Below the pieces are notes generated by a model. That model saw nothing but the letters and a program-made list of their open reading frames with translations, made no database searches and was not told the DNA's origin. This document shows positions 3,622-26,376 of a stretch of 32,323 nucleotides of DNA, one piece after another; within the stretch, counting starts at the first letter, position 1; each line of letters opens with the position of its first letter. The stretch spans positions 1-32,323 of the forward strand of contig JAGLMY010000005.1 in NCBI GenBank assembly GCA_023139775.1, read 5' to 3'. Both the position numbers and the translations under genes were made by a program. This DNA comes from a bacterium. Its GTDB lineage: Bacteria > Oederibacteriota > JAAXVQ01 > JAUVAV01.

Positions 3622-3656
3622 AGGTCAGTTTCCTTTCTCCATTTAATAAATCATCC

Positions 3657-3754: not shown

Positions 3755-3792
3755 CCTTTGGTATATTGGCGCCAATTATTGTGCCTTTATAT

Positions 3793-3821: not shown

Positions 3822-3832
3822 GCAATGATACC

Positions 3833-3858: not shown

Positions 3859-3880
3859 TTTCGTTTTTTTATTTTTTTTA

Positions 3881-3889
3881 TGCTATACT
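3881..3889 (+). promoter_or_regulatory. Extended -10 promoter for the structured RNA
   Basis: TGCTATACT is an extended -10 element (TGn plus TATACT, one mismatch from TATAAT). The -35 position (about 3861-3866) is poor, which an extended -10 can offset. The predicted start is near 3896, directly before the structured RNA candidate. Confidence 0.45.
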
Positions 3890-3895
3890 TATAAC

Positions 3896-4084: not shown

Positions 4085-4103
4085 ACCCACCTGAGCAGTT
4101 ACC

Positions 4104-4128
4104 TATACTTAATGAAAATTGTTTGGAG
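4104..4128 (+). promoter_or_regulatory. Candidate -10 and ribosome site of lnt
   Basis: TATACT at 4104-4109 is a plausible -10 element without a good -35. TTTGGAG ending at 4128 is the ribosome site and sits 6 nt before ATG 4135. That is why the ATG is preferred over the in-frame TTG at 4123, which overlaps the ribosome site itself. Confidence 0.4.
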
Positions 4129-4134
4129 TCACGT

Positions 4135-5799: not shown

Positions 5800-5873
5800 G
5801 GGCGTGATTTATCACGCCCATCATTCCGGTTTCCACACCCATATTTTTGGGCGCGATAAATCGCGCCCCTACG
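5796..5873. repeat. Paired GTAGGGGC-type palindromes, copies 2 and 3
   Basis: Copy 2 has arms GGGCGTGAT (5800-5808) and ATCACGCCC (5811-5819) with GTA before it. Copy 3 has arms GGGCGCGAT (5849-5857) and ATCGCGCCC (5860-5868) followed by CTACG. The two are inverted relative to each other, so the outer edges GTAGGGGCG and CGCCCCTAC also match. The pair fills the whole space between the convergent lnt and coiled-coil genes and could act as a two-way terminator, although no T-tract follows. Confidence 0.7.
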
Positions 5874-6143
5874 TTATTCAATACGCGCCACCCGTTTTTC
5901 CAGCATCTCAAAATCATCATACGAGACTTTCCGGCGCAGATCAGCACGAATCGCGGTTTGACCCTCATGCAATAAGGCCACTTCCTCTTTAAGCGAAGAA
6001 ACATCTTCTTTTATCGCGTGCATATCCGTCTCTACTTTGTCAAAGCGATGGTTCATTACTTCAATAATTTTCTTCTGATTGTCCTCAAATCTTTCAACAA
6101 CTGTTTTAAACTCGCTCATGGTAATTTTTCCTTCTTCTGTCAT
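5874..6143 (-). CDS. Small coiled-coil protein, 89 aa
   Basis: The start ATG at 6143 has a perfect AGGAGG ribosome site (6151-6156) with 7 nt spacing. The protein has no signal peptide or membrane segment. Residues about 12-60 show heptad-like spacing of hydrophobics (FEDNQKKIIEVMNHRFDKV, then VSSLKEEVALLHEG). They are followed by a conserved-looking tail, VSYDDFEMLEKRVARIE. It resembles the small multi-copy coiled-coil hypotheticals found in many environmental genomes; I cannot give a function. The stop TAA (5876-5874) directly abuts a palindrome. A 17-nt inverted copy of its last codons occurs at 6259-6275. A TTGACA-like -35 lies upstream on the minus strand (6184-6179), but no fitting -10 leaves room for the ribosome site. 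Confidence 0.8.
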   Translation of the reverse strand: MTEEGKITMSEFKTVVERFEDNQKKIIEVMNHRFDKVETDMHAIKEDVSSLKEEVALLHEGQTAIRADLRRKVSYDDFEMLEKRVARIE

Positions 6144-6169
6144 TTTCGCGCCTCCTGATTTTGTGATAT

Positions 6170-6193
6170 TTGGCAGGTTCTGTCAACTGCCAA
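6170..6193. other. Inverted repeat upstream of the coiled-coil gene
   Basis: Arms TTGGCAG (6170-6176) and CTGCCAA (6187-6193) enclose a 10-nt loop. It lies 27 nt before the coiled-coil start and overlaps the TTGACA-like hexamer on the minus strand, so it could be an operator. Nothing else supports a specific role. Confidence 0.35.
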
Positions 6194-6258
6194 TTCCTCA
6201 CAAATTGAGACTGGAAAACAACAAAATCCTTGCGTATTATTTTACGTTTGTTAAGGGG

Positions 6259-6305
6259 GGCGCGTATTGAATAACAGTAGGGGCACGGCATGCCGTGCCC
6301 CTACG
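6259..6305. repeat. GTAGGGGC-type palindrome copy 4 with gene-tail sequence
   Basis: Bases 6277-6304 form a perfect 28-nt palindrome starting GTAGGGGCACGGCA. It is preceded at 6259-6275 by the exact inverse of the last 17 nt around the coiled-coil gene stop. It lies 32 nt downstream of the giant gene's stop codon and could act as its transcription end hairpin, although no T-tract follows. Confidence 0.75.
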
Positions 6306-6336
6306 AAATCAAAATCACAACGACCAAAACGAATTT

Positions 6337-9300
6337 TTACGCTGCCGCTCCTACGGCCTTCAATTTCCGCTGGGGTGTTTGCGGCGCCATATCCAGCTTA
6401 ATACCCACACCAAAACCTTCCAGACTTTCGATAATTCGACCGAGGTTTTTATACTCAAGCAAGGTACGTGGTACTGCCTCAGGTGTCAAGGTAATGGAGA
6501 GCGCGTCCGCGTATTCCTTGTAAGTCATGTTAATGTTGAATCCCAGGAAGCCCAAGATTTTTGTGATATCCCCGGCAATGGCTATCTTGGTCTTGTACTT
6601 GGCATCGGATTCCACTGCCTGCAGAAGGTGCAGCAAAGCCAGACGGATGGCGCTGTTCTGACTTTCCTCGGACACTATCTGTTCTGTTCCCGCGATCTTT
6701 AAATTGGCAATGGCCTTTTTAAAGCCGGCATTGTTCAGCAAGGCATTGATTGAAATGTCTTGATAGGTTTGCGGCGGCACGCCATACTCCTTGGTGAATT
6801 CCTTGCTTTGCTTAAGCGCCTCTACAGCTCTGAGTTCTTTACCAGTGATCATCTTGGCCTGGCTTTCTACCTTCACATCGCGCGAAGCAAATACAACATT
6901 ATCCAATTGCTCCTGCACCGTGTCCGTGGGATTGATACGGAAGGCCATCTTTTTGGCCTGGAACCAGGTTGCTGTGCCTTCCAAAGCCAGGGCCGCGCCG
7001 AACACAGCCGCGCCAATACCTAGAATTATGGGTGCAACAGTGCCTACGCCCAGGATGAGTGCCGCGCCGGCGGCCAAAGATACCGCGCCCCAGCCGATCA
7101 TCTGCTGGGATTTGCTGCGGATAAAGATAAGCGGCGTTTGCTCGCTGTGCAAACGTTCTTTGCCCACAATTTTGGTAAATATCTCCTGTGACCAGGAGGG
7201 CTTCATCATCTTTTGATAGGCGGCATAGGACATACCAAATATAGTATTGAACTCCACCACCATACCCGGCTGATTTTCTGCTGCTGCTGTTTTGATCTCA
7301 GCGGCTTTTTGCTTCATCAGAGTAAAAGCCTCAGTTTCCAATTCGACGGAAGCTTCGGCCAGGTTACTCATATCCTTTTCTGTAAACTCGCGGCCCATTT
7401 TACTTTTCACTTTCTCATATAACGTTGTTAATTTCATATCTGAGGTGCAAAGAATTTTTAAATTTTCGCCGTCCATTATGTATTGTTTCAGAAATTCCTG
7501 AAAAGCGTTGTTGCCGAATCCCTTGAATCGCGGATGCTGTTTTAATTTCACGATATAGGAGTTGGTCAGGGTATCTAAGGTTTCTTCCGTGCCGCCGCCA
7601 AACAGCTTAGTTGTTGCGGCCATTATTAATTGGTTAAGCACGCTTTCTGAGAATTGTTGACCCAAGAATTTCACAGAGCTGCTATCTACCGTAACACTGG
7701 TTTTTTGTTGATCCGCTTTATCAGCTTCAGCGTCAACTGCAATGCGCTTTACGCTTTCAAGCGCGTTTGGCACCAAGTCAAAGAGCGCGGCCAGTGTGAG
7801 CGCAAAACCGTAATGATTCATCTTTTCTCCGGCCACCAATTTCACACCGCTTTCCTTTAAAATTTCTGTCAACTCTGGAACCGCCTCGCTCTTATCACGG
7901 CCTTTCATGCGTTTTTTAAACTCCGCAAACACCCCGCCGCCTGCTACAGCTTGCACGGTATCTTTGGACGCTTTATTGACAATAACCGTTTCACTGTCTT
8001 GCTCCGGCACTTTCGTGATGTAATTCATAACTTCACTGTTAAGTTTTCCTAGCGCCAAACCAACCACATAGGGCGCGGCCCAGGCCGGGGCAAAAAATAA
8101 ACTTGACACCAAACCGACTATGGCCATGGGCACAGCAGCCGGGCCCCCGCCAGACATCTTTTTCATGAAGCCCAGCATTTTATTACTGCTTTCAGCGCCC
8201 GTTTTAGCCGAGTCCTTCTTAAATCCCGAAATAATAGTGATACCCATGAACGCCAGCATCATGGCCCAGGGACAAAGACTGGTAAAGCTAAAAGCGCCTA
8301 CAACCGCTGCGCCCACAAGCAGTTTGGTTGGCGTGGAAGGTATCAGCACTCCGTTTTTCACATTAAAGAACGGGGTGAAGAACTGAACGCGGTGGATGCC
8401 GCGCACCAGGTTGTGCCATTGCTGCTTGGCAGCGAGGCCCAGCTGGGCCGCGGAACCGCTGGAATCCAACTGCTCTTTCACCACGCGTTGCAGTATCTGC
8501 GAGTTATTTCCGTATGTTTTTGGCTGCGCCTGTAAACCTGCCATTTGCGGTGTCTGCTTAAACTCGTACCGGTTGGCCAATGACTGCGCCATGACCAAAT
8601 TTTGCTGGACATACTGCACTGCCTGGTTCTTGTCCATGGTTTGGTTCTGATAGGTGATGGTTTTTCCGGCATCTGCCCGCAAGACCGGAATTTTGGCATT
8701 CACCCGGGCTATGTTTTGCAGGGATTGGTTATACAGGGACCTCACCAAATAGGGCTGACGCGCAAGCACAAATTCCGCCATAAATCCTCCGGCGATCTTT
8801 CCAATAAAGGGTATATTCAACGCGTTCAGTGATGATTCCAGACGCTGATAGACCCGCCAATCTGCTCCAAATTTATCTGCCATAGCTTTTTCGAACCAGT
8901 TCCGTCCATACTCAGCTTTCATTTTTTCATACTGTTTCTGATCTGACTGCCAGGTTGAACCAAAAGTTTTTGCCATCTGCATCTCAACCATTTGTTCCTG
9001 ACTCTCGGCTAATTTTGGGTCTTCTTTGGTTAACTCCGACATCTGATCACGTATTTCCGCTTGTTTCGTGTCAATATTTTCGAACTGATTCCATTCTTTC
9101 CAGGTTTTGGCATACGCACTGACCAAAGATATTTGGGCTGCCGAGTTTTTCAAAGCCGCAGTCTGCATCTGCATGTGGCTGACCACACTGCCTATTCCCG
9201 GAATCCAATTCACGAGACCTTTGGTACGCATATGATAGGTATGGAATGCGGGGTTTTGCAGAAGTTTTGATTGCCCTGCCTGGTTCCGGGTACGCCGCGC

Positions 9301-12300: not shown

Positions 12301-15300
12301 TGCCTCGCTCATATCCGTAAGTCCTTCCAGTCCCACGGATTCCATAATTTTATCCATTAACTTGTGCTTCTGGAGTTCGGCAATCGCGTCAGCCAGTTTT
12401 TTGGCGTATCTTGATGCCCATAATTTCCTTAATGTTCCGCCATTTCTGCCTTTCGCCAGCTTTTTTCCATACTTATTTATATTTGCCAAGCTTTTAGTTA
12501 ATATTTTTTTGTCCTCAATCGATAGTTCTTTAAGCTTGTTTTTAATTTCCGTGCTATTAATGGTTTTGAAATCGCCGGTTACTTTTAACAGCTTAGCTGT
12601 CAAGCGGTCCACCTGTTTTTGGGCTGCCTTTATCTCCCGAAGCGCGGATTTATCCCAGGCAGCTTTGTCGTTGGCTATTTCTAAAGCTTGCTCAGCTTTG
12701 TGAAGTTTCTCTGTCCAAATACGGTTTTTGGCTTCTGCCCGCGCGTTAACCAGCGCTTCTATCCAGGATTTAACAGCATTTGGCGCTTTTTTAAGTGTTT
12801 CTTTCAGACGGCTGAATTTTGTTCCGGTTTTTTCTCCTGCTTTTTCAGCTTTTGCCTCACTTTTTAGCACACCTTGAGCTTTGTCGGTTGCTGCCTTTTT
12901 CCCCAGCTCCACATTCAAAAAAACTTCAGCTCTGGACTTGGCTTCGGCCCGGGAAATGTTATTCTGCTCAGCCCGGCGGTATTCATTGGCAATCTTTCTT
13001 ACTATTGCTGTTTTTTCACTTGCTGTTACTTTACGCCCATACGCGGTTTTTCTGGCACTGGCTATCTCTTTGGCTATATTCCTGATTGCTCCTCGGGTAA
13101 TTCCATTGGCTTTTTCAAGGCTTTTAATGCCCATGCTTTTTGCTAAATCTTTGGCAATAGCCTCGCGAATAACTATTTCTGCTTTGGCAGTTAATTTATT
13201 GATGGCCTCGCTGACCTGGCCCTCTTGGCCGAAATATTTGCCCAGTTCTTTCTGCAAAAATGCGGCTCTTCCTTTTTCCTGACTATATTTAATCATAGCG
13301 TTGGAAAAATCCCGGTTTTGCAGTAGATTAACTTTTTCAGCGGGCGACAGTTTCAACTCTTGCAAAAATTTCAGGGTTTTCCTGGGATTGCCGGCAAACA
13401 TTTTGGCTACTCTGCTTATTTCAACGCTGCGCACATCATTTGCTTTGATAGTGTTCTCAAATCCGGGCCGATTTTGGTTAAGCCGATTTATTGCTCTGGC
13501 CTTGGCACGCGGTGAACTATTTAAGCGCCATGCTCTTATCCCTTTTATTGATCCCAAAACAAAGGCTTGAGCTGCGTGGAATGCTGTTGCTGCTACTATA
13601 ACCTGTGCTTCATTAACCTGGCCGGTATCCCAGACCAAACGGCTGTTTGCCCATTCCCGGCTAATAGCTTCTAATAAACCTCTCATGTTTCCGGCTGCAC
13701 TTTTAAAACTTTTCATTACTTTATTTTTCTTGGATTGCAAATTTCCGGGCTCTGCCTGAGCTTGTGCGGCTTCAACCTGGGCCGGTACATCCCCCTTGGA
13801 TTTCATTTCCTTCGCAGCTATCTCCTCATTTCTGCGCTGTACATTCCTAATCTTTTTCCCGATGCCGTTCAGTCCGTTTTTGACTACCTTGTCTTTGCCA
13901 AAAACTTTACATACTTCTTTGCAGACCGTTTTAAAATTATTGAAGTTCACAGCATCTTTAATAATATCCTTCTGCAAAACCGAGTCTTTCTTCAAAAAGA
14001 GTTCTTTAAATAATGCTGTCTTTTCTTTTGCCGTTAGTTTCATGGCATCAACAAATTTCAGACCGGCCAATGGATTTTGCGTCATAATATTCTGCATGCG
14101 TTCTGTGCCCAGTTGATCCAGCAGCTTATTTGCCTTGTCCCCATGAATATTAAACGTGGTTTTCAGCGCTGCTATCTTTTTCCGGGCAGAGAGCGAACTT
14201 TGCATAATCCCCTCTATAACCGCTTGTTGCATCGCGGCTTTGGCAGGATGCTTAATTGGCAGATCAGCCACAAGTTTGGTTGTATTTTGAAGGTTCAGTT
14301 TAGACGCCAGCTTTTCCAGCAGCGGCGCCAGTCGAGCTGTATCTGCCTCAGAAGCTGTCTTTGCGGTCTCTGACTTTTTGGCTGTATCTAAACCCTCCAT
14401 AGCTTTGCCGGATTCTGCTGTTTTGGCGCTCAATTTGTTAACCAGAAGCCGCTTTTCCCGGCCGCTCATTTTTGCCAGCGCTTTATTCAGAATAGGCGCT
14501 GCCAGTGCTTCCAGCACTCCGGTCTTATCCATAACCTTAGAACTGGTTTTCTCCAACAACACTTGTGCGGCCTTGGCATCTGTTCCGGCTATTAGTGTCT
14601 TAAGCGCTATAGGGCTTTTTTCAAAAACAGCTGCTAAAATCTCATTGGTCTTGGCCGGATTCCTGCTCAGCATGGCATTGCATTCTTTTAGTCCTGCTCT
14701 GGAAAGCACGGTCTTCAATCCATCCTTATTCAGGCTGTTAATAATATTAAGCGCCTGGTTTCCGCCTTTGCCAAGCCCTCTGGCCAGCACATTTGAGGCT
14801 TTTGATACTAATTTCACGCCTTGATAGACGCTTTTGGCATTAGTATAATTATGCTTTTGCGCGATACCCATGGCCTCCAGCGCAGCCGCGTCTGATGTTT
14901 TGAAATGATTTCTAATTCTTGATATAAATGATGATTTTCCCGGCGCATTGGCCGCGCTCTTCGCGCTTACAGGTTCAATTTGCGCAGCTTCTTTTTCCAT
15001 TTCCAGCGCTGTGATGGAATCTTTTTGATTGGTAACAGATTCCAATATCTTATTAATTTTTCCAACATCTCCATTTGCGGTGCGGGAAATTTTATCAATA
15101 ACCCGGTTAGTGGTTAATCTATCCGCACCAACCCGGGCCAGTGCTGTAACAACTTTTGCCTGTACACCCTGATTCAGTTGGGTAAAGGCTTGCCTATCTC
15201 CTATTTGCATTCTTTTTCCACTGCTTTCCACTCTTACGGCAACTGCTTTTTTGATATCCTGAAAAGTTCCTTTTTTCGCGTTACGGCCTAATTTCAGGGC

Positions 15301-18300
15301 GTAAGCGGTAATATTGCGGCCATATTTATTTATAATAATCTCTGTTTGCGTCATATGAGACTTGCCTTGCGCTATACGAGTAACGCGGTTCGCGTAACGG
15401 TTGGCAAAATACGCGCGTCCGCCAACCAAGGAAAATATTCTGCCAGGTAGTTTAAGTCCCGCGGTTATCGGCGAGGTAAGCGTGTGGCGGGTGGCTTGCA
15501 ATCCGCCGACTACAAATACTCCGGCACCTTTCAAACCAAAAATCGCCCGGGTATAGCCAACAGTTTGGGCGCGCGCTTTAACGCCTTCAAATTTAAACTC
15601 CCTTCCAAAAGCCTTAACTTGTCCGCCTTTTAAATGCATAGCTATGCTGCCCATTGCCGGGATGGCGCTCAAGCCGCCTAATCCCTTGCCGTAAAAAGCG
15701 CCCAGGTCGCTGCCAAAGTATCCACCGATATACTCACCTGCCAGTCCCAAAGCGCGATTGGCAACCATAAGATACCCAAAGTTCATCACCTGATTAACCG
15801 TTGCCCTGGATACGCTGATCCCGGCTTTGCGCGCGACAGTTCCTACAAACTGGCCGCCGCCAAAGGCAAAAGCAAGTGCCTGGGCAGGATTGGTCTTTAA
15901 CATCTCCCACATATGTATCGGAAAATCAACCAAACCTGCTCCGGTTACTATCAGCGCATCCCAGTCTCCCCAGCCTTCTCCCCTGGACACATCTCTCACC
16001 ATAGTACGCACGCCATTCGCGACATCCAAAACCAAAGGCGCCATAAAACCCAGCATAATTTCCGTCTTTACGAAAAAATATGTCCCTGCGCCCAGCGCCA
16101 GTTTTGCTCCTGTTACCAAAAGATTGTCATTTGCCCAGTCAATGTGCAGCATTTTGCCAAAAGTCTCTTGATGCGCCTGGCCGGTATGCGCGGCAATTGC
16201 CGTATGCACTGCTGCTGCGTCTTTATTGCCGAAGAAGTATTTTATTTTTCCCATTAAATTATGCGTTAAAGAAGCCGCATCAATAGCGTATTCTGATGAC
16301 TGGTAAATTGCCCTGTTTATCTTATGTGAAACTGTTGCGTATGCTTCCTTGATGTCAGCCATGAAAATTTTTCTGCCAATATTTTCCGCAGTAGCACCGG
16401 CCATATCGCTTTTGCCATAAAGCTCCATCCATTGGCTTATATTGCCGGCTGTGGCAATTCTCTCGCGCGCCAGATATAATTGCTCATTTGCCGGCGTAAA
16501 TCCTTCTGTTATATTTTTAACAACCACATCATTTTTACCGCGGATGATCTTGACGGTCACCTCGCCGGCGTGCTTACCTTTCCAGCGATCTCCAGCAATC
16601 TCTCCTTTATAAGTAAACTGCTCGCCTTTCTTAGTTGTTCCATCAGCAGCATAGGTAGTGCGCAGAGTGCCGGTTTGTTCCCCTTTTCCCGGCAATGTTA
16701 GAGTTTGATTTTCCTGGGTTTTTGTCCAGCTGGTTACTTCACAGGTAATCTGCTTATCCCTGCCGGCTTCTATATGCGTGCCTGGTATATACTTTTTTGT
16801 GGTTTTTGTTTTTTGTTCAAATTCAGCGTTCCATGCATTGCCGTCTTTATCTTCAAACTGTATGCCCGTTAACTGCTTGTCTTTATTAAAGGTAATCGTC
16901 ATTTCAGGGTTGGCTTTTCCAGTCTTTTCTTTGGCAAGAGAAATCACATTAGCGGTTTGTTCTTTGTTTTTTAATGGACTGTTTTTCGCTGCTGCCAACT
17001 CTTCAGCTGTCCAGGATACGCTTGGAAGCCATTCGCCACGTTCTGTAGAATATGCGGTATACTTATCTCCAACACTAGGTACTAAACCTTTTCTCGCATC
17101 TGTCTTAGTCGCGGTTATCTCTTTCGCGTCTGTTTTCCATGTCCATTTTCCGTTCTCTAAATTGTAGATACCTTGGGCAGCTGCATCACTTTTGTTCTTG
17201 TACGCATCTCCCTGAACTCCGCCCCATTTGCCTTTCTCACTTGAATATGCCGTAAACTTCTCTCCGGTCTTGGCCAGACCTTGTTTTTCCTCTGCTGCGC
17301 TCGCTGTAAACTCCTTAGCGTCTGTTTTCCATGTCCATTTCCCGTTCTCTAAATTGTAGATACCTTGGGCAGCTGCATCACTTTTGTTCTTGTACGCATC
17401 TCCCTGGACTCCGCCCCATTTGCCTTTCTTGTCAGTCAATTGCGCAACAAACTTATCTCCCGTTGCTTTCGCTAACCCAAATTTAACTTCAGCGTTTGTT
17501 GCTATAAATTCTTTCTTATCCATTACCCAAACAAATCCTGCTTTTTTAGTCTCAGGATCAACTTTCCATTCTGATATGCTCTGTTTATCCACACTTCCCA
17601 AAACATCACTCTTCGTAACCGTCTTCGTTATATTCCCATCACCTGACATCTGCACGACCACATGCTTCTTGGTGACTTCATGCACTGTCATATTTACGCC
17701 TTTTCCATCTACATCATTATATTTGGCAAACTTCAGATTTATCTCCTGCTGTACGTCAAACTCCATTACTTCCTGCAGCCCGCTGCCGCCGCTGCTGCCG
17801 CCTGGGATCAGGCGGCGGCCGTTCGCGCTGAAGAGTTCCTGTTTGCGGGTTTTATTGTCTGTTAAGGTAAAGCTGCCGTCTGGGTTCATTTTGAAAGTGA
17901 CGTTTTTATTTTGTGTGAGTTTTTGCAGGCTGGCTGGGATCAAGTCGCCTTTGGCGTCATAGTGTAATTCAGCGTTGCCCAAATCATTGAAAATGGTTGT
18001 TGAGCCGCTAGGTTTGTTATCCTTATAAATCGCCTCGGAGACGCGGGATTTATCCGCGCTGTGTTGGGTCACTGTATAGTTTTTGGCATTGCCCGGCTGG
18101 GGAGTAATAATCATGTCATGCGCCAACATTTTGCCGGATACGTCTGCTCTTGTGAGTTGGTTGTCTTTATATTCAGCCAGATAGCCCAGAGTCTGCTCGC
18201 CTGCTTTATCAAGCTGATTTCTGCCGGCCACAAAATAATTGCCTGCCTTAATCTCAGCCTGGGTCCCGATAAATAAGGTGCCGTCTCCGGCACGATAAGC

Positions 18301-21300
18301 GCTCTTGCCTTCCAGCATCTTGGTTAGGGTCCGGGCTGAATCAGCTTTTATACCCAATTGCGTTAAATGCTCCGTAGTAATAGCTGCTACTTCAGTGGTT
18401 TCATGGCGTTTGCCGTTAATAAATATCACCGGATTCTTGCCTTCAAAAACCATGGTGGCATGATTTGTTGCATTTAAAGCTGCCAATAGTTTATCTTGGG
18501 CATAGATCATGTCAGCCGTGGCTTTTCTGGTTTGGGTATCAACTGTCAGGTGATAAATTTTTCCATTTTCTTTATGGAAGACTGACGCGCTGCCGTCAGT
18601 AATATCAGCTTGTGTAATCAGCACATAGCGGGTTACCTTTTGGCCGTCAAGCATGATTTGGACAGACATCCGTTCCTGAGTCATAGTCACGCCGTCTTCG
18701 CCTGCCTGATAAACCGCGCTGATTCCTTGCGCGTCGCTGGTCTGTATTGCGGCTACAACTATACCCAGCCCTTCTTGTTTGAAACTTATAATTATTTGCG
18801 AATAATCATTCAATTGCTGGGTAAGGGTAAGCTTGCCATCAGCACCTTTATTTATTACGCCCAGGCCTGGGACCGTTTTTTGCGTACCAAAGGGCATCTT
18901 GACAAGCTGCGGCCAGACCTGCTTAATGACTTCTTTAGTAAATTTGTCAACCATTTTCTCGCTAAAGGACTTCGGCTGGGAATCGTCAAAAAGTTTAAGC
19001 CTTTGATCCCCGGCAGAGGCATTTTTAACCATGTCTTGTAACTGTGCCATATCCTGGGGCTGCATCTGCTGCTCAAGATATTCCCAAACTCCTTCTACCA
19101 CATATTCAATCATACCACTCGTATCGTTAGCGTCTTTTAAGATAATCGCGACCTGGGCGTCTATTGCCATTTGGGCTTCTTTTGGCAACATATTTTTATT
19201 GGGAGCCATATAGGCGTGCTTGGCAGTTTCAACTGCGGCAATCATATGTCCGGCCTGGAGCTGCTTTTTGGCAGCTATGATAAGCGAGCCCGCGTCTCCG
19301 CTTTTCCGGGCCAAGTTGACCAATGCTTCTAATTTTTCCGGGGTTCTTTCCCGCTCATACTCCTCTACTGCCCGAATCATCTGGTAAGATTTCTGATGCG
19401 CTTTTTTGTGGTATTCCAGCGCCAGAGCGAGCGTCTGAACAACTTTGGCTGGATCAGGGTTTAGGGTTTGCTCTTTGAGATAATCTTCGACTATTTCTAC
19501 GGCTTTATTATATAGAAACTGATTGCCTGTCTGTTCTGTTATCTTTAGGGCCTGGGCCGCCACTTCCGCCCGCGTAGCACTATCCTTAAAACCGGATATT
19601 TTGGCCAGAACCGCGCTGACCAGGCTGTCCGCGTTTTTTACGCTTTCCGGGGTTCCGTCCAGCATATTCTCAGCATACTTCAGCGATGCGGAGGCCCAGA
19701 GACCCATGGCAGTTTCATGTTCAGGAGAACCAACGTTCGTCTCTGCCAAATAATTTTTCGCAATATCTACTGCTTCTTTGGACCAGTTACCAGCCATCTC
19801 TTGCAAGGCCTGGTTATAGGCCGGGGTGCCTGGCTGCAGATTCCGGTCTGTGAGCACTTTAATCACAGCCGGGTTTTGCGCCATAACCGAAGGATTGGAA
19901 TTGGCTATCAGTACCCGCGCGCGCCGGGTTTCGCTTGGCTGGCCTGCAACATGCCTGGTATCCAACAGAGCGGATATTTCCAGGCCGCGGTTGGTTCTGA
20001 TATAAATGCGCTGTTGGGTCTTAACCCAGGTCTTTTTAGCTGTATCGTACTTCCAGACCTGGTTGACTTGTCCTTCAAAATGTGTATACGCAATATCTGC
20101 AGGACCGTTGGGACCCATTTGACGACTGATGACTTTATTGTCCCAGAAACCACCGACTACGATATAGTCGGAAGCGCCATGAAAGTTGCCTTGTTGATCT
20201 ATAGCCAGGGTGTAACTATGACCGTCACTGGCTTTCACCTCGACCTGAGACCTGCGATCCCGGTCAACATACGGTTGATTCCACTCAGTGTCGTCTACGG
20301 TTGCAGTAACCGCTTTCCCGTCTTTTCCGGTAAATTCAAAGGTGGATGTTCCTACTGTTCCCGGATCCTTAAAGTTGATAAGACCCAGAGTCAACAACTG
20401 TGCTAAAGGAGACCAGGAGTCTTTCTTGGTTTGTTGGGACTTTGGTTTGGTTCCAGTCTTGTCAGTACCCTTTGTATCAGGTTGGCCGCTCTTGTCTCTC
20501 TCAACCTTTTTTTCCTGCTGAGCTTGCTCTTCCTTGTCCTTAACTGCGGTCTCACGTTTGGTGGTATTTTTAGTGGTATCGTTGGTGGCGCCGGCAGCTT
20601 GTTCATTCGACATCTGGTTAGTCGGGATTTTATTATCACTTTTAATCTCGGGCGTTGTTTCATCATTAGTAACCTTTGCCATAGGCTGCGTGCTATCCGA
20701 CAAAGTGCCCTTGGTTTGATCAACCGAACTCTTATTATTTAGCACTTCCGGATTGGCGGAATTATCCCCCAGCATATTATTGTCAGTACCATTATTGGCA
20801 CTGCCATCAGTGGCGCTGTCATTAGTGGCGCTGCCATGATTTTCTTCCGCGGTTGGAGGAGCACGGGTCAACATATCCTTGGGCCGTTCCACAGAAGAAC
20901 CGTCAGAATTCACCTTGTCAGGTACTTTTTGGCCATCCGCCAAGTTACGCGTTTCTTGCCCGACCATTTTGGCCACGGGCTGACCGGTTTTGTTGCCACC
21001 TTTGTCCCCAACAGTACCTCCGGTATTGTTGCTTTCAATACTCTTGCTGTCAGAACTTACGGTCATATTGGCGGCTGTGTTTCCGTTAAAGCTGACTTCA
21101 CCGTTAGGTCCAACTTTAGCTTTAATATGCACCTCTTTTGTTTTGATATTAATCATGCACGGGACTTTCTGACCTCCCGGCAAGGTGGCAGTGCCCAGTT
21201 TGGCATTACTCGGATCAAATTCACCCTGGCTGGCAGGTTTGTCAAATTTAACTTTTCCGTCCGGACCAATGGTGCCGGTCAGTGCCAGATTACCTTCATC

Positions 21301-24300
21301 ATCCAGCTTGCCAGTGGCTTTCGAACCATCTGGCAATTCCAACTCAACCGGTTTGCCTTGGCCTTGGCCTTGGCCTTGGCCCAAGGTGGATTTGCCGGCA
21401 CCGGCAGCAGCTAATGCATCAGCTTCTAAGGGTTTACCGTCTTCACCAAGTTTAACATCAGTCGCTGTTCCCTCAGAATTGCCGTCTTTATCAATCCGGT
21501 CTCCGGCTTTTTGGGGGAGTCCGGGTGTGCTCTTCTTACCATTACCTTTGCCTGGGGCGGTGCTGGCCACGCCGCCTTTGCCTGCCAAGCCTTGGGACAG
21601 ATCCATATCCGGAACTGTAAATTTATCACCTATTTGCTTGGCCTGGCCGTCGTTACCGCCGGCATAGGTGCGGGCTTCAACGCCGGCAGCACCTTGATTG
21701 AAGACGGTAGTATTGTTCTGTTTGTTGGGAAGTGTCTCATTCATAGCCAGCAACTGCGTGCTGCCATCCGGCTTAACAGCCGAAATTTCCATCATCTGAT
21801 TTCCGTCTTGATTTGTATAGGACTTCACGTTAAGGGTCGCGTTGTCAGGAACTGAAGAAAGCACATCCGGGCCCATGGTTTTTATGGCATGCTGCAAGTT
21901 TTTATTCTCTCTATACATTTCACCGGTTACTGAGCTGTTTGTGACCGAAGTTCCCTCTTTAGGAGTAGACTTGGATGGATTAGTCCCTTGGCTGCCTGAA
22001 GATTTGGCGTTCGTGGCCTTTATTTCCGTTAATTGCTGCTGAGTGGCCACGGCATTGGCTAGTGTGGTCGGAGCAACGTAAACACTGCTACTGCCGGTAT
22101 TGGCATTGGTTACATTAGAATTGGATTTGCCTCCCTCAGTGCCATCGCCCTTTGCGTCACCGCCCTCTGCGCCTTCACCTTCTGCTCCTTCGCCCTCTGC
22201 GCCTTCACCGCCACTACCACTTGTGTCACCCTCTTTTCCTTCTACTTTTTCACCATCTTGGCGTTCGCTTTTAGCCACCTTGTCGCCCTCTCTGGTTTGT
22301 TTTGTGTTCAACCCAGTTAAATCCTTGATCTCGACTTTATGTTTATCCCGGACTTGGGGCAGATTTTCCGGGTGATCTGTCAGCTCTTCACGCGAGGCAG
22401 AGTCAGTATGTTTTTGATCTTCAATCTTCGGTGTATTTAATGTGTCATCATGTGTGGTATTTGGCATCTTGGTATCAGGAATCGTCTCCTGTTTAGCGGC
22501 TTGGGGCTTGGGGTTCTCTGTTTTTGTGGTATCCGGAACCGGTTTTGGTGCATCGGCCGGCTTGGTTTTCTCGGACTTCGGCATGCTGCTCTTTGGAGTT
22601 TGTGATTTGTCGGAAACCGTATTTTGGGGCAAGCTAGAGTTGGATACAGTCGCGGTGCTGGATTCAATATTAGATTCGCTGTCCCTTTCATTATTTTCTG
22701 TAATCTCTGCTGTAGTCTCTGCTGTAGAAAATTTACCCGCATCAGTTGCAATCGGATTGCCAACAGCTTTACTATCCTGTCCTGGCATGTTCACTGCCAT
22801 ATTAGATCCGGGTCCAAACACACCAGCACCAACCACACCTTGCGCGCCAGTAACGCCGCCAGTAACGCCGCCAGTAACGTTGCCAGTCTTATTACCAGTA
22901 CCGTCGCCAGTACCGTTGCCGCTGCCGCCGCCAAACATTTTTTGTATATTAGCAGCTAAGCCGGTCCACTCCATGGTTTGTTTCGTTTCGTTCATAGCAA
23001 GACCTGGTATTATTCCGGTAACAGCATCGCCGGCCATCCCAGAAACCATATTAAGCTGGTTCGCGCCCCAGCCCTCGTCTTGCAAACCCGCGGGTTGAGT
23101 GGTTTGGATGAACGAGGAAACCGCTGCCGCGACCACAGGACGAACGATCTCATTTAAGAGAACGCCCAATTCCTGCATCATGTCCAGGCTCAGGGTCTTG
23201 CCCACGTTCTGGATATCTATTTGCGCACTGGCATAGCCCATAACACCGCTGGCCAAGGCGCCGTAAACCGCGCCGGCGCGCATGCCCTGTGCCTCATTGG
23301 GATCGCCGTCGTCTTTTAAAAACGAGACATGGATCAGGACCGATACTATGGCCCGCATCATGGGCGAGAGCAGTACCTTCGCGGTATCTAACTGCTCCAC
23401 GAAGTCTTTGCCTTTATCCATCCCTAAAATGTCCATGAGCCCGTCTTCGAGTCCGTCAAAAAAACCATCACCGGTTAGTAAGCTGGCCAAGCCGCTGGCC
23501 AGAACATCGGCGCCCAGACCCAAAATGGTCTTAAAAACCATAAATTTATCATCCAATGTATTGACAAAGAACTGCATAATGACTTCTTTAATAACCCTCT
23601 TTAAGACTTCCGGCAAAACTTTAGCGTGAGCTATGCTCTTGAGCATATCCAGAAAAGTAGTTAATATAAGCTTGACTCCGTTCTCAAGCGCACTACTAAG
23701 CGCTTTAGCCCAGCCGCCTAAGGCAGCGGTTACAATACTAAGAGCAATGTCCAGCCATTCCGGCATGGGAACAAACAAACAAATCAAACTTATTAATGCT
23801 ATTGCTACCTGAAGCGCTATCATGAAGGCTGTTCCCGCGCCCAGGGTGAAAAAGCTTACAACAATGGTAATAATCCACATGCAGATTTTGCCTATTGGCG
23901 AATTAGCAAATTCACCCAATTCCTCCATATCATCCCACTCAAAAGTAATGATTTTATACATTGTATAACCAGGGACAACAAACAGCAGCATGTCCCCAAA
24001 CGATTTCAGGCTCGGATTTGTAATAAAGTTTATTATCGCATAAATAGGTCCGAGAATTATAAGCGTGATGCCATAGGTGAAGTAATCCATACATCCCGGA
24101 CTACCCTGCGAATTATCCTGTGAGTCTTGTTCCGGCGGAGACGGATGATCCCACATGCCGGCCTGGGCCCAGGGATCTGCTCCAGCAGCATCGGAGCTTC
24201 CCCATCCCTGGCTATCCGGTGTGTGTTCTCCCTCAGGAGCGTCCTGCAAGGTCACAATCTCATCCTGCCTGCCGTCGAAAGCTTCTAAGCTTACATATTT

Positions 24301-26376
24301 AATGCGTGTATCTTCTTTCTGCGCTCCGGCAGTGACTGTAAAATTATAATCATCCCTGTCAAAGATCATGTTGACATCAACCTTTTCCGGATTTAGAGGC
24401 GCGGACATGCCGATATCAATAGTCATGTCCTCCGAATACGGATTCACCGCTTTTTTGTCCAATTCTGAATAATTTGAAGGAATGTTCTCTCCGGTGACAA
24501 TTAAATTTATGCCGCTTTGCAGTACCTCGCCCAAAGTGGCCATATACCCGGATTCGCTCACACCAACGGGTTCCAACCCCAAGCTTTGGAACACGGCTGC
24601 TGCTGATGCTTCCTGCGGCAGATCTTTCAAGTCATCGCCCAGCATATCCGCGTCCACGTTAGCGCCTTTGATTTGAGCTTCGCCTTCTTCCTCATTTTCC
24701 AGCTCGGCTTCCACACGAGCCTCCGGACCAACAATGGCAATATTATTTTCTTCATCCATTTCTGAGTCCGTGTTTTCTACCAGCACCTCATCTTCTGTCT
24801 CACCCGACAATTCAATATTTCCCTCGTTTTCCGTATCCTCGGTCTCATCCTCATCTGTCCTTGCCAGCACTGGCGATAATTCGCGGGCTTCTACAGGCAA
24901 ACCTTCTTCTTCCAATCCCAACTCTTCAAGCAACGCATTGATATCCACATCTTCTTCCAAAACCAGTCCTTCGCCGGCTTCCAAGGCGGGCATACCCTCT
25001 CCCTCCATGACCTCGCCCAGCATGTCTTCCAGCATCTCAACGTCAATATCACTGCCTTCATCCTCGCCGCCTATTCCTAACATGGCCAGTATCTGTTCCG
25101 GAAATCCTTCGCTCTCGCCCTCTTCTTTGGGTTTTTCTTCACCTTTCTCATCGTCATCTGTTTTGACAGCCGCGTCTTTTGGCGACTCTTCCTCAGACAG
25201 CAGGTTGCCCTCTTGGTCATCTTCTTTGTCTTCTACGGCTTCACCTTTTTCATTTTCTTGTGTCAACTCAGCCACTACAGTTAATGCATCTTCTTGGGTC
25301 TCTGTTTCAGTGTCCTTGACTTCGGATTCATTGTCCTGACCTGCTTCTATACCGGCTGCTGTCAGGCTATCCGGCAATTCCAGGTCTTTCGGATTTAAAA
25401 TGTCTTCCTGGTTATTGTCATCACCCAGGCCCAGCAGATTCATAAACTGCCGCGCCATGTCTGAAAACACATTGTCCGGTTTCTGTTCAATGGTTTGCTC
25501 TGCGTCTTGCTCAGCTGTGGTAGTCTGGTTGTCTTGATCTTGGGTAGTAGTGTCCGGAACATCCGCGATTTCCGGTTGTGTGGTGTCTGTCGTAACCGGC
25601 GCTTGATCATCACTCTGATCTTGCGTAACCACCACTTCGGAGACAATAATCGTATTATCAGTTGTTGCGGTAATGATTTTGTCTGTGGTTGGATCTTCGG
25701 TCCGAATCGGTTCTGTTGTGTCGCCAATCGGCTTACTATCCTGAACCACCGGCAACGGAACCGGCAGTCCTGCCAAAGCGCTGTTAGCTTCCGGACTTAA
25801 ACGTGCAGCCTCCACACCACTGCCTAATTGCAGGGTTAAGGTTAATGGTCCTTGACCTGTAGTGACTGCCTCAGCCTGAATGCCTGGATCAACGGCTGGC
25901 ATATTTGAATCCGTATCAGTTATTGGTTGTTCACCCTTTGTCTGGCCGGGAGTATTCTCAATTGCCAGGTTAATCAGCGTATCTAAGCCGGCGCCATTCG
26001 CACTTTGCTCAGCTACGGTTTGTAAAGACACAGTTTTGAGGATATCACCGTATTCTGATTTGAGCACATTTAACTGGGTGTCTCTAACGCCGCCATCCTC
26101 AGTGGTGGGTTGACAGGAGATGGCATCAAAGGCATTGGGTTGATTGTTTTGGATGTTTATGGGAGCTTGGAAATCGTCAACTGTGTCTTGATAGTAGTTC
26201 TCATTGCGGTTGGGATCATAAGCATGCGCCAGTATGATGTCGATCCCGGTCATGGTAAACATAAAAGTTACCGCCAGGATCGTTGAGATTATTTTACGTT
26301 GTCGCTCTCGCAATAATCTGCCGAAGTCCTTACACTTTTTCATTCCAGCTGTAAAAATCATTTCTATGGTTGTCAT
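6337..26376 (-). CDS. Giant exported multidomain protein (6,679 aa) with SF2/SecA-like motor core
   Basis: The frame is uninterrupted for 20 kb. ATG 26376 is preferred to GTG 26385 because AGGTGATC, a perfect anti-SD complement, lies just before it and overlaps the GTG. A basic region and the hydrophobic run IISTILAVTFMFTM form a signal peptide, cut after AHA (residue 52). Approximate residues: 53-325 Thr/Asp/Gln-rich; 325-600 strongly acidic; 760-905 several membrane helices; 1150-1185 Gly-Thr repeats; 1185-2000 disordered Ser/Thr/Lys/Gly-rich; 2010-2170 beta domain; 2170-2480 TPR-like helices; 2480-3120 beta-rich with 64-residue repeats; 3380-3680 hydrophobic Gly-rich; 3700-4880 Lys/Ala-rich helical; 4916-5535 helicase-like core; 6010-6130 and 6430-6485 membrane helices. 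Giant ORFs are known from Omnitrophota-type bacteria. Function unknown; a surface or envelope machine for protein movement or cell contact is speculation. Confidence 0.9.
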   Translation of the reverse strand: MTTIEMIFTAGMKKCKDFGRLLRERQRKIISTILAVTFMFTMTGIDIILAHAYDPNRNENYYQDTVDDFQAPINIQNNQPNAFDAISCQPTTEDGGVRDTQLNVLKSEYGDILKTVSLQTVAEQSANGAGLDTLINLAIENTPGQTKGEQPITDTDSNMPAVDPGIQAEAVTTGQGPLTLTLQLGSGVEAARLSPEANSALAGLPVPLPVVQDSKPIGDTTEPIRTEDPTTDKIITATTDNTIIVSEVVVTQDQSDDQAPVTTDTTQPEIADVPDTTTQDQDNQTTTAEQDAEQTIEQKPDNVFSDMARQFMNLLGLGDDNNQEDILNPKDLELPDSLTAAGIEAGQDNESEVKDTETETQEDALTVVAELTQENEKGEAVEDKEDDQEGNLLSEEESPKDAAVKTDDDEKGEEKPKEEGESEGFPEQILAMLGIGGEDEGSDIDVEMLEDMLGEVMEGEGMPALEAGEGLVLEEDVDINALLEELGLEEEGLPVEARELSPVLARTDEDETEDTENEGNIELSGETEDEVLVENTDSEMDEENNIAIVGPEARVEAELENEEEGEAQIKGANVDADMLGDDLKDLPQEASAAAVFQSLGLEPVGVSESGYMATLGEVLQSGINLIVTGENIPSNYSELDKKAVNPYSEDMTIDIGMSAPLNPEKVDVNMIFDRDDYNFTVTAGAQKEDTRIKYVSLEAFDGRQDEIVTLQDAPEGEHTPDSQGWGSSDAAGADPWAQAGMWDHPSPPEQDSQDNSQGSPGCMDYFTYGITLIILGPIYAIINFITNPSLKSFGDMLLFVVPGYTMYKIITFEWDDMEELGEFANSPIGKICMWIITIVVSFFTLGAGTAFMIALQVAIALISLICLFVPMPEWLDIALSIVTAALGGWAKALSSALENGVKLILTTFLDMLKSIAHAKVLPEVLKRVIKEVIMQFFVNTLDDKFMVFKTILGLGADVLASGLASLLTGDGFFDGLEDGLMDILGMDKGKDFVEQLDTAKVLLSPMMRAIVSVLIHVSFLKDDGDPNEAQGMRAGAVYGALASGVMGYASAQIDIQNVGKTLSLDMMQELGVLLNEIVRPVVAAAVSSFIQTTQPAGLQDEGWGANQLNMVSGMAGDAVTGIIPGLAMNETKQTMEWTGLAANIQKMFGGGSGNGTGDGTGNKTGNVTGGVTGGVTGAQGVVGAGVFGPGSNMAVNMPGQDSKAVGNPIATDAGKFSTAETTAEITENNERDSESNIESSTATVSNSSLPQNTVSDKSQTPKSSMPKSEKTKPADAPKPVPDTTKTENPKPQAAKQETIPDTKMPNTTHDDTLNTPKIEDQKHTDSASREELTDHPENLPQVRDKHKVEIKDLTGLNTKQTREGDKVAKSERQDGEKVEGKEGDTSGSGGEGAEGEGAEGEGAEGGDAKGDGTEGGKSNSNVTNANTGSSSVYVAPTTLANAVATQQQLTEIKATNAKSSGSQGTNPSKSTPKEGTSVTNSSVTGEMYRENKNLQHAIKTMGPDVLSSVPDNATLNVKSYTNQDGNQMMEISAVKPDGSTQLLAMNETLPNKQNNTTVFNQGAAGVEARTYAGGNDGQAKQIGDKFTVPDMDLSQGLAGKGGVASTAPGKGNGKKSTPGLPQKAGDRIDKDGNSEGTATDVKLGEDGKPLEADALAAAGAGKSTLGQGQGQGQGKPVELELPDGSKATGKLDDEGNLALTGTIGPDGKVKFDKPASQGEFDPSNAKLGTATLPGGQKVPCMINIKTKEVHIKAKVGPNGEVSFNGNTAANMTVSSDSKSIESNNTGGTVGDKGGNKTGQPVAKMVGQETRNLADGQKVPDKVNSDGSSVERPKDMLTRAPPTAEENHGSATNDSATDGSANNGTDNNMLGDNSANPEVLNNKSSVDQTKGTLSDSTQPMAKVTNDETTPEIKSDNKIPTNQMSNEQAAGATNDTTKNTTKRETAVKDKEEQAQQEKKVERDKSGQPDTKGTDKTGTKPKSQQTKKDSWSPLAQLLTLGLINFKDPGTVGTSTFEFTGKDGKAVTATVDDTEWNQPYVDRDRRSQVEVKASDGHSYTLAIDQQGNFHGASDYIVVGGFWDNKVISRQMGPNGPADIAYTHFEGQVNQVWKYDTAKKTWVKTQQRIYIRTNRGLEISALLDTRHVAGQPSETRRARVLIANSNPSVMAQNPAVIKVLTDRNLQPGTPAYNQALQEMAGNWSKEAVDIAKNYLAETNVGSPEHETAMGLWASASLKYAENMLDGTPESVKNADSLVSAVLAKISGFKDSATRAEVAAQALKITEQTGNQFLYNKAVEIVEDYLKEQTLNPDPAKVVQTLALALEYHKKAHQKSYQMIRAVEEYERERTPEKLEALVNLARKSGDAGSLIIAAKKQLQAGHMIAAVETAKHAYMAPNKNMLPKEAQMAIDAQVAIILKDANDTSGMIEYVVEGVWEYLEQQMQPQDMAQLQDMVKNASAGDQRLKLFDDSQPKSFSEKMVDKFTKEVIKQVWPQLVKMPFGTQKTVPGLGVINKGADGKLTLTQQLNDYSQIIISFKQEGLGIVVAAIQTSDAQGISAVYQAGEDGVTMTQERMSVQIMLDGQKVTRYVLITQADITDGSASVFHKENGKIYHLTVDTQTRKATADMIYAQDKLLAALNATNHATMVFEGKNPVIFINGKRHETTEVAAITTEHLTQLGIKADSARTLTKMLEGKSAYRAGDGTLFIGTQAEIKAGNYFVAGRNQLDKAGEQTLGYLAEYKDNQLTRADVSGKMLAHDMIITPQPGNAKNYTVTQHSADKSRVSEAIYKDNKPSGSTTIFNDLGNAELHYDAKGDLIPASLQKLTQNKNVTFKMNPDGSFTLTDNKTRKQELFSANGRRLIPGGSSGGSGLQEVMEFDVQQEINLKFAKYNDVDGKGVNMTVHEVTKKHVVVQMSGDGNITKTVTKSDVLGSVDKQSISEWKVDPETKKAGFVWVMDKKEFIATNAEVKFGLAKATGDKFVAQLTDKKGKWGGVQGDAYKNKSDAAAQGIYNLENGKWTWKTDAKEFTASAAEEKQGLAKTGEKFTAYSSEKGKWGGVQGDAYKNKSDAAAQGIYNLENGKWTWKTDAKEITATKTDARKGLVPSVGDKYTAYSTERGEWLPSVSWTAEELAAAKNSPLKNKEQTANVISLAKEKTGKANPEMTITFNKDKQLTGIQFEDKDGNAWNAEFEQKTKTTKKYIPGTHIEAGRDKQITCEVTSWTKTQENQTLTLPGKGEQTGTLRTTYAADGTTKKGEQFTYKGEIAGDRWKGKHAGEVTVKIIRGKNDVVVKNITEGFTPANEQLYLARERIATAGNISQWMELYGKSDMAGATAENIGRKIFMADIKEAYATVSHKINRAIYQSSEYAIDAASLTHNLMGKIKYFFGNKDAAAVHTAIAAHTGQAHQETFGKMLHIDWANDNLLVTGAKLALGAGTYFFVKTEIMLGFMAPLVLDVANGVRTMVRDVSRGEGWGDWDALIVTGAGLVDFPIHMWEMLKTNPAQALAFAFGGGQFVGTVARKAGISVSRATVNQVMNFGYLMVANRALGLAGEYIGGYFGSDLGAFYGKGLGGLSAIPAMGSIAMHLKGGQVKAFGREFKFEGVKARAQTVGYTRAIFGLKGAGVFVVGGLQATRHTLTSPITAGLKLPGRIFSLVGGRAYFANRYANRVTRIAQGKSHMTQTEIIINKYGRNITAYALKLGRNAKKGTFQDIKKAVAVRVESSGKRMQIGDRQAFTQLNQGVQAKVVTALARVGADRLTTNRVIDKISRTANGDVGKINKILESVTNQKDSITALEMEKEAAQIEPVSAKSAANAPGKSSFISRIRNHFKTSDAAALEAMGIAQKHNYTNAKSVYQGVKLVSKASNVLARGLGKGGNQALNIINSLNKDGLKTVLSRAGLKECNAMLSRNPAKTNEILAAVFEKSPIALKTLIAGTDAKAAQVLLEKTSSKVMDKTGVLEALAAPILNKALAKMSGREKRLLVNKLSAKTAESGKAMEGLDTAKKSETAKTASEADTARLAPLLEKLASKLNLQNTTKLVADLPIKHPAKAAMQQAVIEGIMQSSLSARKKIAALKTTFNIHGDKANKLLDQLGTERMQNIMTQNPLAGLKFVDAMKLTAKEKTALFKELFLKKDSVLQKDIIKDAVNFNNFKTVCKEVCKVFGKDKVVKNGLNGIGKKIRNVQRRNEEIAAKEMKSKGDVPAQVEAAQAQAEPGNLQSKKNKVMKSFKSAAGNMRGLLEAISREWANSRLVWDTGQVNEAQVIVAATAFHAAQAFVLGSIKGIRAWRLNSSPRAKARAINRLNQNRPGFENTIKANDVRSVEISRVAKMFAGNPRKTLKFLQELKLSPAEKVNLLQNRDFSNAMIKYSQEKGRAAFLQKELGKYFGQEGQVSEAINKLTAKAEIVIREAIAKDLAKSMGIKSLEKANGITRGAIRNIAKEIASARKTAYGRKVTASEKTAIVRKIANEYRRAEQNNISRAEAKSRAEVFLNVELGKKAATDKAQGVLKSEAKAEKAGEKTGTKFSRLKETLKKAPNAVKSWIEALVNARAEAKNRIWTEKLHKAEQALEIANDKAAWDKSALREIKAAQKQVDRLTAKLLKVTGDFKTINSTEIKNKLKELSIEDKKILTKSLANINKYGKKLAKGRNGGTLRKLWASRYAKKLADAIAELQKHKLMDKIMESVGLEGLTDMSEAIIKVNGKETTRIKNLGESIAEVLKMVRNELGFAKPLAGNRAEIRDEIVKTIISEGAKAKALKQSVERLLKKMENTHGRITEKVLRKMIKESLHLDTNAYVDSIFKAVKEGVTLSLKDGAKLEALGYQAVSAKEASLTNKSGLRTRVDIAIKNLNEARGLKLNTQGKRIMADVILRFQKDANYRNFTRDADAQAFLFRQAELHYLNLELHGKNSGIKNLIGTALQLAMGGGKSGSGLSMEVGRELFMAKHPGKEVPAMLYMTKDATLVMQMLKEGAFKTWDKQGILEVLSKDNAAKVIKNGFENNKVYIMENETLKHIVLEMRSAGKNDAWIANKLQKKLGTVAWDEFHAIFHTTDTIIGASGVWNKLSDGVREQATDMLLDLTRSYAEVRKWYKAAEKSGMKFNDMFVSIESGVNKEIRGQFTFNKKARASLLKATGFDYNRSGDAFILDKMVKVLSSKNKHQWSGTYVKGKGTSYGTMEGGVGKPNTIKGDTFEAALTHIEIFLAAMAKKKGFNINRMTNKEFATKHDDFIKTAGDALAHTTTERVTMAEAVQLIGAHNIVAFSGTFEGLAQRTLRAWGKTVLKINAEPQVALKEVAKGEATFTVKIDDKIISIKQGKNGNLELVLNRESARVNRFMLKEAMSHLDSGKDYGGKLTNQAYTHSDGTVLVHALKIARQKYWGNKSKMVVINTKTVERYIERHKRDIMKKIKAQGTDIKLVKTRDGMLDMADIVTRKAVEKAVDMMLEVQAGKNVVQLVYVDGMAPDLWSVAMDKVGKKIQTPEAKKDGKVIPAGWKQKRMLFAARIGEGLNTYKITAANKGMRAEIIDMRMSPLDVARQAAKRVGVFDKKTGEFRRAQGTYHNIIDLNDTANVKTSEKQEFKTFIKKAEAKMKSRRGDARYFEIKNKDAKGIEGDLIREFCDLLVSEGGATTGITRRILNEVDAAKSADAYKTQAGIQTEKTTKLSVSKTSDKYMPELAKKIEKNLPSKLREFQGVTDCLARRTRNQAGQSKLLQNPAFHTYHMRTKGLVNWIPGIGSVVSHMQMQTAALKNSAAQISLVSAYAKTWKEWNQFENIDTKQAEIRDQMSELTKEDPKLAESQEQMVEMQMAKTFGSTWQSDQKQYEKMKAEYGRNWFEKAMADKFGADWRVYQRLESSLNALNIPFIGKIAGGFMAEFVLARQPYLVRSLYNQSLQNIARVNAKIPVLRADAGKTITYQNQTMDKNQAVQYVQQNLVMAQSLANRYEFKQTPQMAGLQAQPKTYGNNSQILQRVVKEQLDSSGSAAQLGLAAKQQWHNLVRGIHRVQFFTPFFNVKNGVLIPSTPTKLLVGAAVVGAFSFTSLCPWAMMLAFMGITIISGFKKDSAKTGAESSNKMLGFMKKMSGGGPAAVPMAIVGLVSSLFFAPAWAAPYVVGLALGKLNSEVMNYITKVPEQDSETVIVNKASKDTVQAVAGGGVFAEFKKRMKGRDKSEAVPELTEILKESGVKLVAGEKMNHYGFALTLAALFDLVPNALESVKRIAVDAEADKADQQKTSVTVDSSSVKFLGQQFSESVLNQLIMAATTKLFGGGTEETLDTLTNSYIVKLKQHPRFKGFGNNAFQEFLKQYIMDGENLKILCTSDMKLTTLYEKVKSKMGREFTEKDMSNLAEASVELETEAFTLMKQKAAEIKTAAAENQPGMVVEFNTIFGMSYAAYQKMMKPSWSQEIFTKIVGKERLHSEQTPLIFIRSKSQQMIGWGAVSLAAGAALILGVGTVAPIILGIGAAVFGAALALEGTATWFQAKKMAFRINPTDTVQEQLDNVVFASRDVKVESQAKMITGKELRAVEALKQSKEFTKEYGVPPQTYQDISINALLNNAGFKKAIANLKIAGTEQIVSEESQNSAIRLALLHLLQAVESDAKYKTKIAIAGDITKILGFLGFNINMTYKEYADALSITLTPEAVPRTLLEYKNLGRIIESLEGFGVGIKLDMAPQTPQRKLKAVGAAA
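9763..11631 (-). other. SF2 helicase/SecA-like ATPase core inside the giant protein
   Basis: Motifs appear in the right order for a two-RecA-domain motor. Motif I is QLAMGGGKS (near residue 4,916; compare SecA TGEGKT). Motif II is WDEFH (near 5,037, DExH type). Motif III-like is FSGT (near 5,255). Motif V-like is IGEGLN (near 5,497). Motif VI-like is QAAKRVG (near 5,530). The core of about 620 residues fits SecA or DExH helicases. In motif VI the second arginine of the usual QxxGRxGR is not seen, so ATPase competence is uncertain. I see these motifs by eye; family placement is inference. Confidence 0.6.
17036..17540 (-). repeat. 64-residue tandem repeats in the giant gene
   Basis: DNA at 17126-17237 and 17318-17429 is identical over 112 nt apart from two bases, both synonymous, at an offset of exactly 192 bp (64 codons). 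Both encode KGKWGGVQGDAYKNKSDAA followed by QGIYNLENGKWTWKTDA. Flanking parts of the unit (KE-F/I-x-A-T/S ... GLA ... GDKF/Y-x-A) recur three times with more divergence. The near-identity suggests a recent duplication or gene conversion. Confidence 0.8.
21355..21381 (-). repeat. Six-base tandem repeat coding Gly-Gln runs
   Basis: The unit CCTTGG (plus strand) is repeated about four times and encodes GQGQGQGQG in the giant protein's disordered region. Such a run can change length by slippage in steps of two residues without breaking the frame. Confidence 0.7.
22150..22210 (-). repeat. Glu-Gly-Ala tandem repeats in the giant gene
   Basis: The region encodes imperfect repeats of GEGAE (GGEGAEGEGAEGEGAEGG), an acidic flexible linker between Ser/Thr/Lys-rich stretches. 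It is a low-complexity coding repeat, not an independent element. Confidence 0.7.
22847..22920 (-). repeat. Gly-Thr linker repeats, 12-base unit
   Basis: The unit CCAGTAACGCCG (plus strand) occurs three to four times and degrades into related units. It encodes TGDGTGNKTGNVTGGVTGG. It follows the first membrane cluster and probably acts as a flexible linker. Confidence 0.65.

Follow-up and report, generated by a model that had tools for sequence, protein, structure and literature searches.

A 6,679-residue predicted membrane protein with a SecA-like core and its relatives in one bacterial order

The locus and its giant reading frame

The window, that is, the whole stretch of 32,323 nucleotides analyzed here, contains no Ns and belongs to a genome assembly of 3.59 Mb in 362 contigs that is 90.6% complete. 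Its central feature is a single giant open reading frame on the minus strand, and the following genes lie at and downstream of it:

6337..26376, minus strand: giant ORF of 6,679 aa from ATG, an open frame with GGAGAGG 8 nt 5' of the ATG and even codon-position GC
4123-5799, opposite strand to the giant: Lnt-like (apolipoprotein N-acyltransferase-like) gene, 60.8% identical in G002:C9
2986..3621, minus strand: 211-aa protein downstream of the giant, with a weak RHS-repeat match (E=0.005, below the cut-off)
287..2974, minus strand: 895-aa protein with a signal-like N-terminus and no known domain, homologue in G002:C36

The frame is open across 6337-26385 and counts 6,682 codons from an alternative GTG start at 26385. 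Since the GGAGAGG lies eight bases before the ATG at 26376, the 6,679-residue start is the better choice; the residue numbers of features and motifs nevertheless run from the GTG (ATG numbering + 3). Given the base composition, the probability of such an open frame arising by chance is ~10^-168. Complete homologous frames of 5,516, 6,537, and 7,826 aa are present in other assemblies, further ones end at contig edges, and none of the homologues contains an internal stop or frameshift. An assembly join as the origin of the giant frame is ruled out, since long homologous frames exist in independent assemblies. A preliminary description of this DNA had claimed one uninterrupted 20-kb frame and named an assembly join within it among the conditions that would count against this; the frame is borne out, and the homologues speak against the join.

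The protein can be divided into the following parts, all encoded on the minus strand:

26206..26292, minus strand: signal peptide or first membrane segment, residues 32-60 (hydropathy, flank charge +6/-4)
24106..26208, minus strand: acidic, probably disordered region, residues 60-760 (24.4% D+E, 4.7% K+R)
22999..24087, minus strand: membrane cluster 1, residues 767-1129 (hydropathy; conserved in G006:C113 and G002:C36)
20386..22998, minus strand: low-complexity region, residues 1130-2000 (composition)
17530..19392, minus strand: conserved module, residues 2332-2952 (blastp to G006, G002:C36, G001, and G002:C49)
17056..17427, minus strand: repeat region, residues 2987-3110 (exact 39-aa copies)
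13525..17112, minus strand: variable middle module, residues 3092-4287 (62-67% identical to G003:C318)
13549..13605, minus strand: last membrane segment upstream of the motor, residues 4261-4279 (flank charges -1 on the N side, +6 on the motor side)
9241..11868, minus strand: SecA-like SF2 ATPase core, residues 4840-5715 (ten-locus alignment, motif positions, Foldseek to SecA)
8047..8346, minus strand: C-terminal membrane hairpins 1 and 2, residues 6014-6054 and 6079-6113 (similar segments after the motor in relatives)
6967..7101, minus strand: C-terminal membrane hairpin 3, residues 6429-6473 (both flanks basic, +2/+2)

The N-terminus is signal-like, with a KR-rich stretch followed by IISTILAVTFMFTMTGIDIILAHAYD and flank charges of +6/-4, so that export is predicted as in the preliminary description, and the first 340 aa are conserved in G002:C36. 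The disordered acidic third of that description shrinks to residues 60-760 (24% D+E), about one tenth of the protein; the low-complexity residues 1130-2000, with 13.5% D+E, are not acidic and have no blast match in the relatives. No Pfam domain was found in the conserved module 2332-2952. As to the beta repeats mentioned earlier, a repeat is indeed seen, with exact 39-residue copies at 2987-3025 and 3051-3089, while the TPR-like helices find no counterpart: Pfam detects neither TPR nor any other credible known domain above its curated cut-offs in the giant, and scans with NCBIfam and PHROGs likewise returned no credible domain. The middle module is 62-67% identical to that of G003:C318, whereas the motor of the same pair reaches only 23%, a gap that points to module exchange, possibly between paralogues.

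A SecA-like SF2 core

Within the core, the motif set of SF2 ATPases is conserved, comprising Walker A GGGKS at 4923-4927, motif II DE at 5040-5041, motif III SGT at 5260-5262, motif V GEGLN at 5502-5506, and motif VI Q5534/R5538. In an alignment of ten loci from six genomes (the window and nine loci outside it, in five other genomes), core identity to the window ranges from 19 to 47%, and the columns of the P-loop (G.GK), DE, SGT, GEG.N, and Q...R show little or no variation. The family sequence around motif II, DE.HSAFHTTDTI.GSSG, can be aligned by eye with DEVDSILIDEARTPLIISG of SecA.

SecA is an ATP-driven pump that pushes proteins through membranes. In the giant core, motifs I, Ia, II, III, V, and VI follow one another as they do in SecA, and the spacing is similar between motifs I and II (114 residues vs. 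107 in SecA) and from motif V to the Q of motif VI (31 vs. 32), whereas the distance between motifs III and V is longer (241 vs. 116). Motifs II and III are 222 residues apart, compared to 166 in canonical SecA and about 30 in other SF2 helicases, and this insertion sits where SecA carries its preprotein-crosslinking domain, a match in position and size only. Structure prediction points in the same direction. An AlphaFold model of the full core is of low confidence (pLDDT 55, pTM 0.34, with an input of four rows only), and a Foldseek search with it places SecA at ranks 1-7 of 350,542 PDB chains (best E=1.4e-5, prob 1.00). A model of NBD1 alone (pLDDT 61, above 70 over most of residues 100-180) retrieves almost exclusively SF2 ATPases, with SecA first and then mostly RIG-I, MDA5, and further SecA chains, and no match, SecA included, passes E=0.001. 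TM is ~0.2 for both models. As regards two RecA-like folds, the models are of low confidence, and their best PDB matches are SF2 ATPases.

At the sequence level, the core differs from SecA. The SecA_DEAD (PF07517) and P-loop_SecA (PF21090) profiles match neither the window protein nor five relatives, profile-profile comparison of core and SecA fell short of significance (hhalign prob 0.1; NBD1 pairwise P=0.016), as did comparisons that also used 38 SecA proteins and the SecA parts of the sister giants described below, and sequence searches of the PDB, run with the core and with its profile, yielded chance matches only. Unlike SecA, the core moreover forms part of a 6,679-aa chain that has a signal and membrane segments. 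Since the best Foldseek match and the motifs come without significant sequence similarity or a Pfam SecA domain, the core is best described as SecA-like by predicted fold and motifs rather than as a member of the SecA family. The SF2/SecA-like core of the preliminary description holds up in this sense.

Membrane segments and predicted topology

According to a plain hydropathy scan, used in place of a trained topology predictor, the membrane segments lie at residues 767-1129, 4261-4279, 6014-6113, and 6429-6473, in agreement with the spaced membrane clusters claimed before. Among the seven members of the family that have a last membrane segment upstream of the motor, its motor-side flank is the more positive one in five (+6 in the window, and +5, +4, +2, and +1 in the other four), and two show the opposite. 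The flanks of the C-terminal hairpins are often neutral or basic on both sides among the members. The flank charges favor a motor on the cytosolic side, which lends support to the arrangement proposed at the outset, with the motor inside and long N-terminal parts outside. A composition classifier separating cytosolic from exported proteins, with 87% and 78% correct assignments in cross-validation, gave no clear call for the motor.

Family distribution and gene neighborhood

Six of eight genomes of one order carry the core family, and the 376 genomes outside it, 45 of them from the same phylum, yielded no member (384 relatives searched in total); G002 carries three copies. A scan of viral contigs returned no relative of the giant. 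The preliminary description had pointed to Omnitrophota-type bacteria as known carriers of giant ORFs; an assignment to Omnitrophota is not supported, since the named relatives are Candidatus Goldiibacteriota DeMMO3_7 and candidate division FCPU426.

Where blast blocks are shared, their order is constant: N-terminal signal region, cluster 1, module 2332-2952, middle module, motor, and hairpin C-terminus. The blocks are not universal among the relatives, G001:C44 for instance having no match to membrane cluster 1. The domain order, which had been put forward as possibly new, is not unique to the window protein but common to the sampled relatives.

Part of the neighborhood is conserved as well. 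In G002:C36 a homologue of the 211-aa gene (48% identity) directly follows the giant, and a homologue of the 895-aa gene (39% identity) is found at the same place. A split transketolase lies upstream of the giant both in the window and in G001:C44. Lnt-like genes adjoin giants in the window and in G002:C9, and LNT_N matches are several in G002 and one to three in most relatives. G002:C9 also encodes a YD/RHS-like repeat protein of at least 2,216 aa (2-6649, minus strand), the N-terminus of which is 31% identical over 121 aa to the 895-aa protein of the window.

Sister giants with SecY and SecA

A second set of giants fuses SecY and SecA_DEAD in one chain and occurs in four genomes (G002:C4, G003:C297, G004:C62, and G005:C13). 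In these proteins a complete SecY (profile matches of ~1e-39 to 1e-47) is followed by the SecA DEAD domain (~1e-11 to 1e-16) and in some by the preprotein-binding domain. The open frame in G002:C4 comprises 9,337 aa, with SecY at 2.6e-47, SecA_DEAD at 6.6e-14, and the SecA preprotein-binding domain at 1.6e-5; outer-membrane efflux (OEP) and cellulase-like matches are seen further along this chain. Like the window protein, the SecY-SecA giants combine a giant chain, membrane segments, and a SecA-type motor, and a signal-like N-terminus is seen in G002:C4, the other SecY-SecA contigs being incomplete. Unlike the window protein, they carry a recognizable SecY plus SecA_DEAD, and blastp detects no similarity between the two sets. 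Their occurrence in four genomes links giant chains to Sec translocation in this bacterial family.

The genome of the window itself encodes a 3,301-aa frame (G000:C42:374-10279, minus strand) with SecA_DEAD, P-loop_SecA, and a Fis-type HTH; its N-terminal module of ~460 aa is common to six other long frames. This giant is the best SecA_DEAD match in the assembly of the window, where no canonical SecA was found, which may reflect the incompleteness of the assembly (90.6%). The SecA_DEAD matches listed for the 384 genomes are mostly canonical SecA.

Proposed function and alternative readings

A bioRxiv preprint of 2023 by West-Roberts et al. is said to report divergent secA DEAD helicase domains in the majority of giant genes, so that giant transmembrane proteins of this general type, with divergent SecA/DEAD domains, are already known. 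The window protein fits this class as it is reportedly defined (>5,000 aa, several membrane regions, a SecA-like domain). What seems new are the variants, namely the family confined to one order and the SecY-SecA fusions, and a literature search, which was not exhaustive, found no published report of such fusions. Giant ORFs are also common in Omnitrophota, and a role in attachment or predation has been ascribed to them there (Seymour et al., 2023, PMC10066038; PMC12057145). They resemble the window protein in their very long frames, many membrane helices, and few known domains; however, they come from another phylum and their adhesion domains were not found in the window protein.

The reading we tentatively favor is that of a membrane-anchored giant with a SecA-derived ATPase, a motor devoted to exporting or assembling a cell-surface giant. 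The frame, motif conservation, best structural match (SecA), and module order are computed results; the topology, the ATPase activity, protein as the substrate, and a channel partner are inferred. The N-terminus would be exported by the ordinary Sec route, so that the bulk of the initial ~4,200 residues would be periplasmic or surface-located, and the chain would return across the membrane at segment 4261-4279. The SecA-derived SF2 ATPase and the C-terminal membrane hairpins would then lie at the inner face of the cytoplasmic membrane, where the ATPase most likely would spend cytosolic ATP on pushing polypeptide through a Sec-type channel, candidate substrates being the long exoplasmic parts of the giant itself or partner surface proteins. 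What speaks against this reading is that no SecY-like channel is recognized in the chain of the window protein, that the profile comparisons with SecA are not significant, that the structure models are poor, and that the motor is low in cysteine, a point taken up below. The preliminary hypothesis of a single-chain envelope machine becomes more plausible because the sister giants carry both SecY and SecA.

The strong divergence from SecA, together with a chain that has no recognizable channel, would also agree with a SecA-derived domain retained to bind ATP in a structural or regulatory role, with no part in translocation. We consider this unlikely, since the Walker motifs, motifs III and V, and the Q/R of motif VI are kept at 19-47% identity, as expected for hydrolysis coupled to movement.

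Two further readings appear improbable to us. In the first, the giant serves at the surface or in predation, and its SecA-like part works outside the producer, for instance after delivery of the C-terminal part into another cell, using the ATP of that cell. The link of Omnitrophota giants to attachment and predation (PMC10066038) and the variable middle between conserved ends are in line with it, as is the cysteine depletion along the whole chain, motor included. The motors contain 16 Cys in 8,811 residues (0.18%); in G002, exported proteins have 0.41% and those lacking membrane segments 1.36%. Such a low content would be compatible with a location outside the cytoplasm. However, the SecA parts of three SecY-SecA giants, linked to SecY and expected to be cytosolic, are equally Cys-poor (0-3 in ~700 aa), and cysteine depletion is set aside as a topology argument for this reason. 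The positive-inside charges furthermore favor the cytosol of the producer, and Pfam finds no delivery system or toxin domain in the chain. In the second, equally improbable reading, the giant frame is translated and its product cut into an exported N-terminal part and a cytosolic motor. This would suit a very long chain and the doubt voiced about the integrity of giant proteins, which has been called unclear (PMC12057145), whereas the homologues are free of internal stops and frameshifts and keep the module order, although cleavage would be compatible with both observations.

Least probable is a membrane-tethered SF2 nucleic-acid translocase, for example in DNA uptake or transfer, which would accord with the SF2 motifs, the RIG-I/MDA5 matches of the NBD1-only model, and the basic core of the window giant (17% K+R, 11.5% D+E), but helicases rank below SecA in the full-core search, the large insertion between motifs II and III sits at the SecA position, and the motors of several relatives are not basic (net -1.4 to +1.3%).

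Returning to the favored export or assembly motor, a broader and rather doubtful extension is that the order builds private translocation machines as single giant chains, with a SecY plus SecA family carrying surface and enzyme domains and the highly diverged window family combining a SecA-type motor with its own hairpins; each would export or move the surface parts that belong to it. To our knowledge, the translocation ATPases of known Sec systems are separate subunits. Giant chains that include the motor, joined in the sister genomes by the channel, would link ATP and a surface structure in a new way, and would give a handle on how bacteria export proteins thousands of residues long and on the role of giant ORFs in uncultured bacteria.
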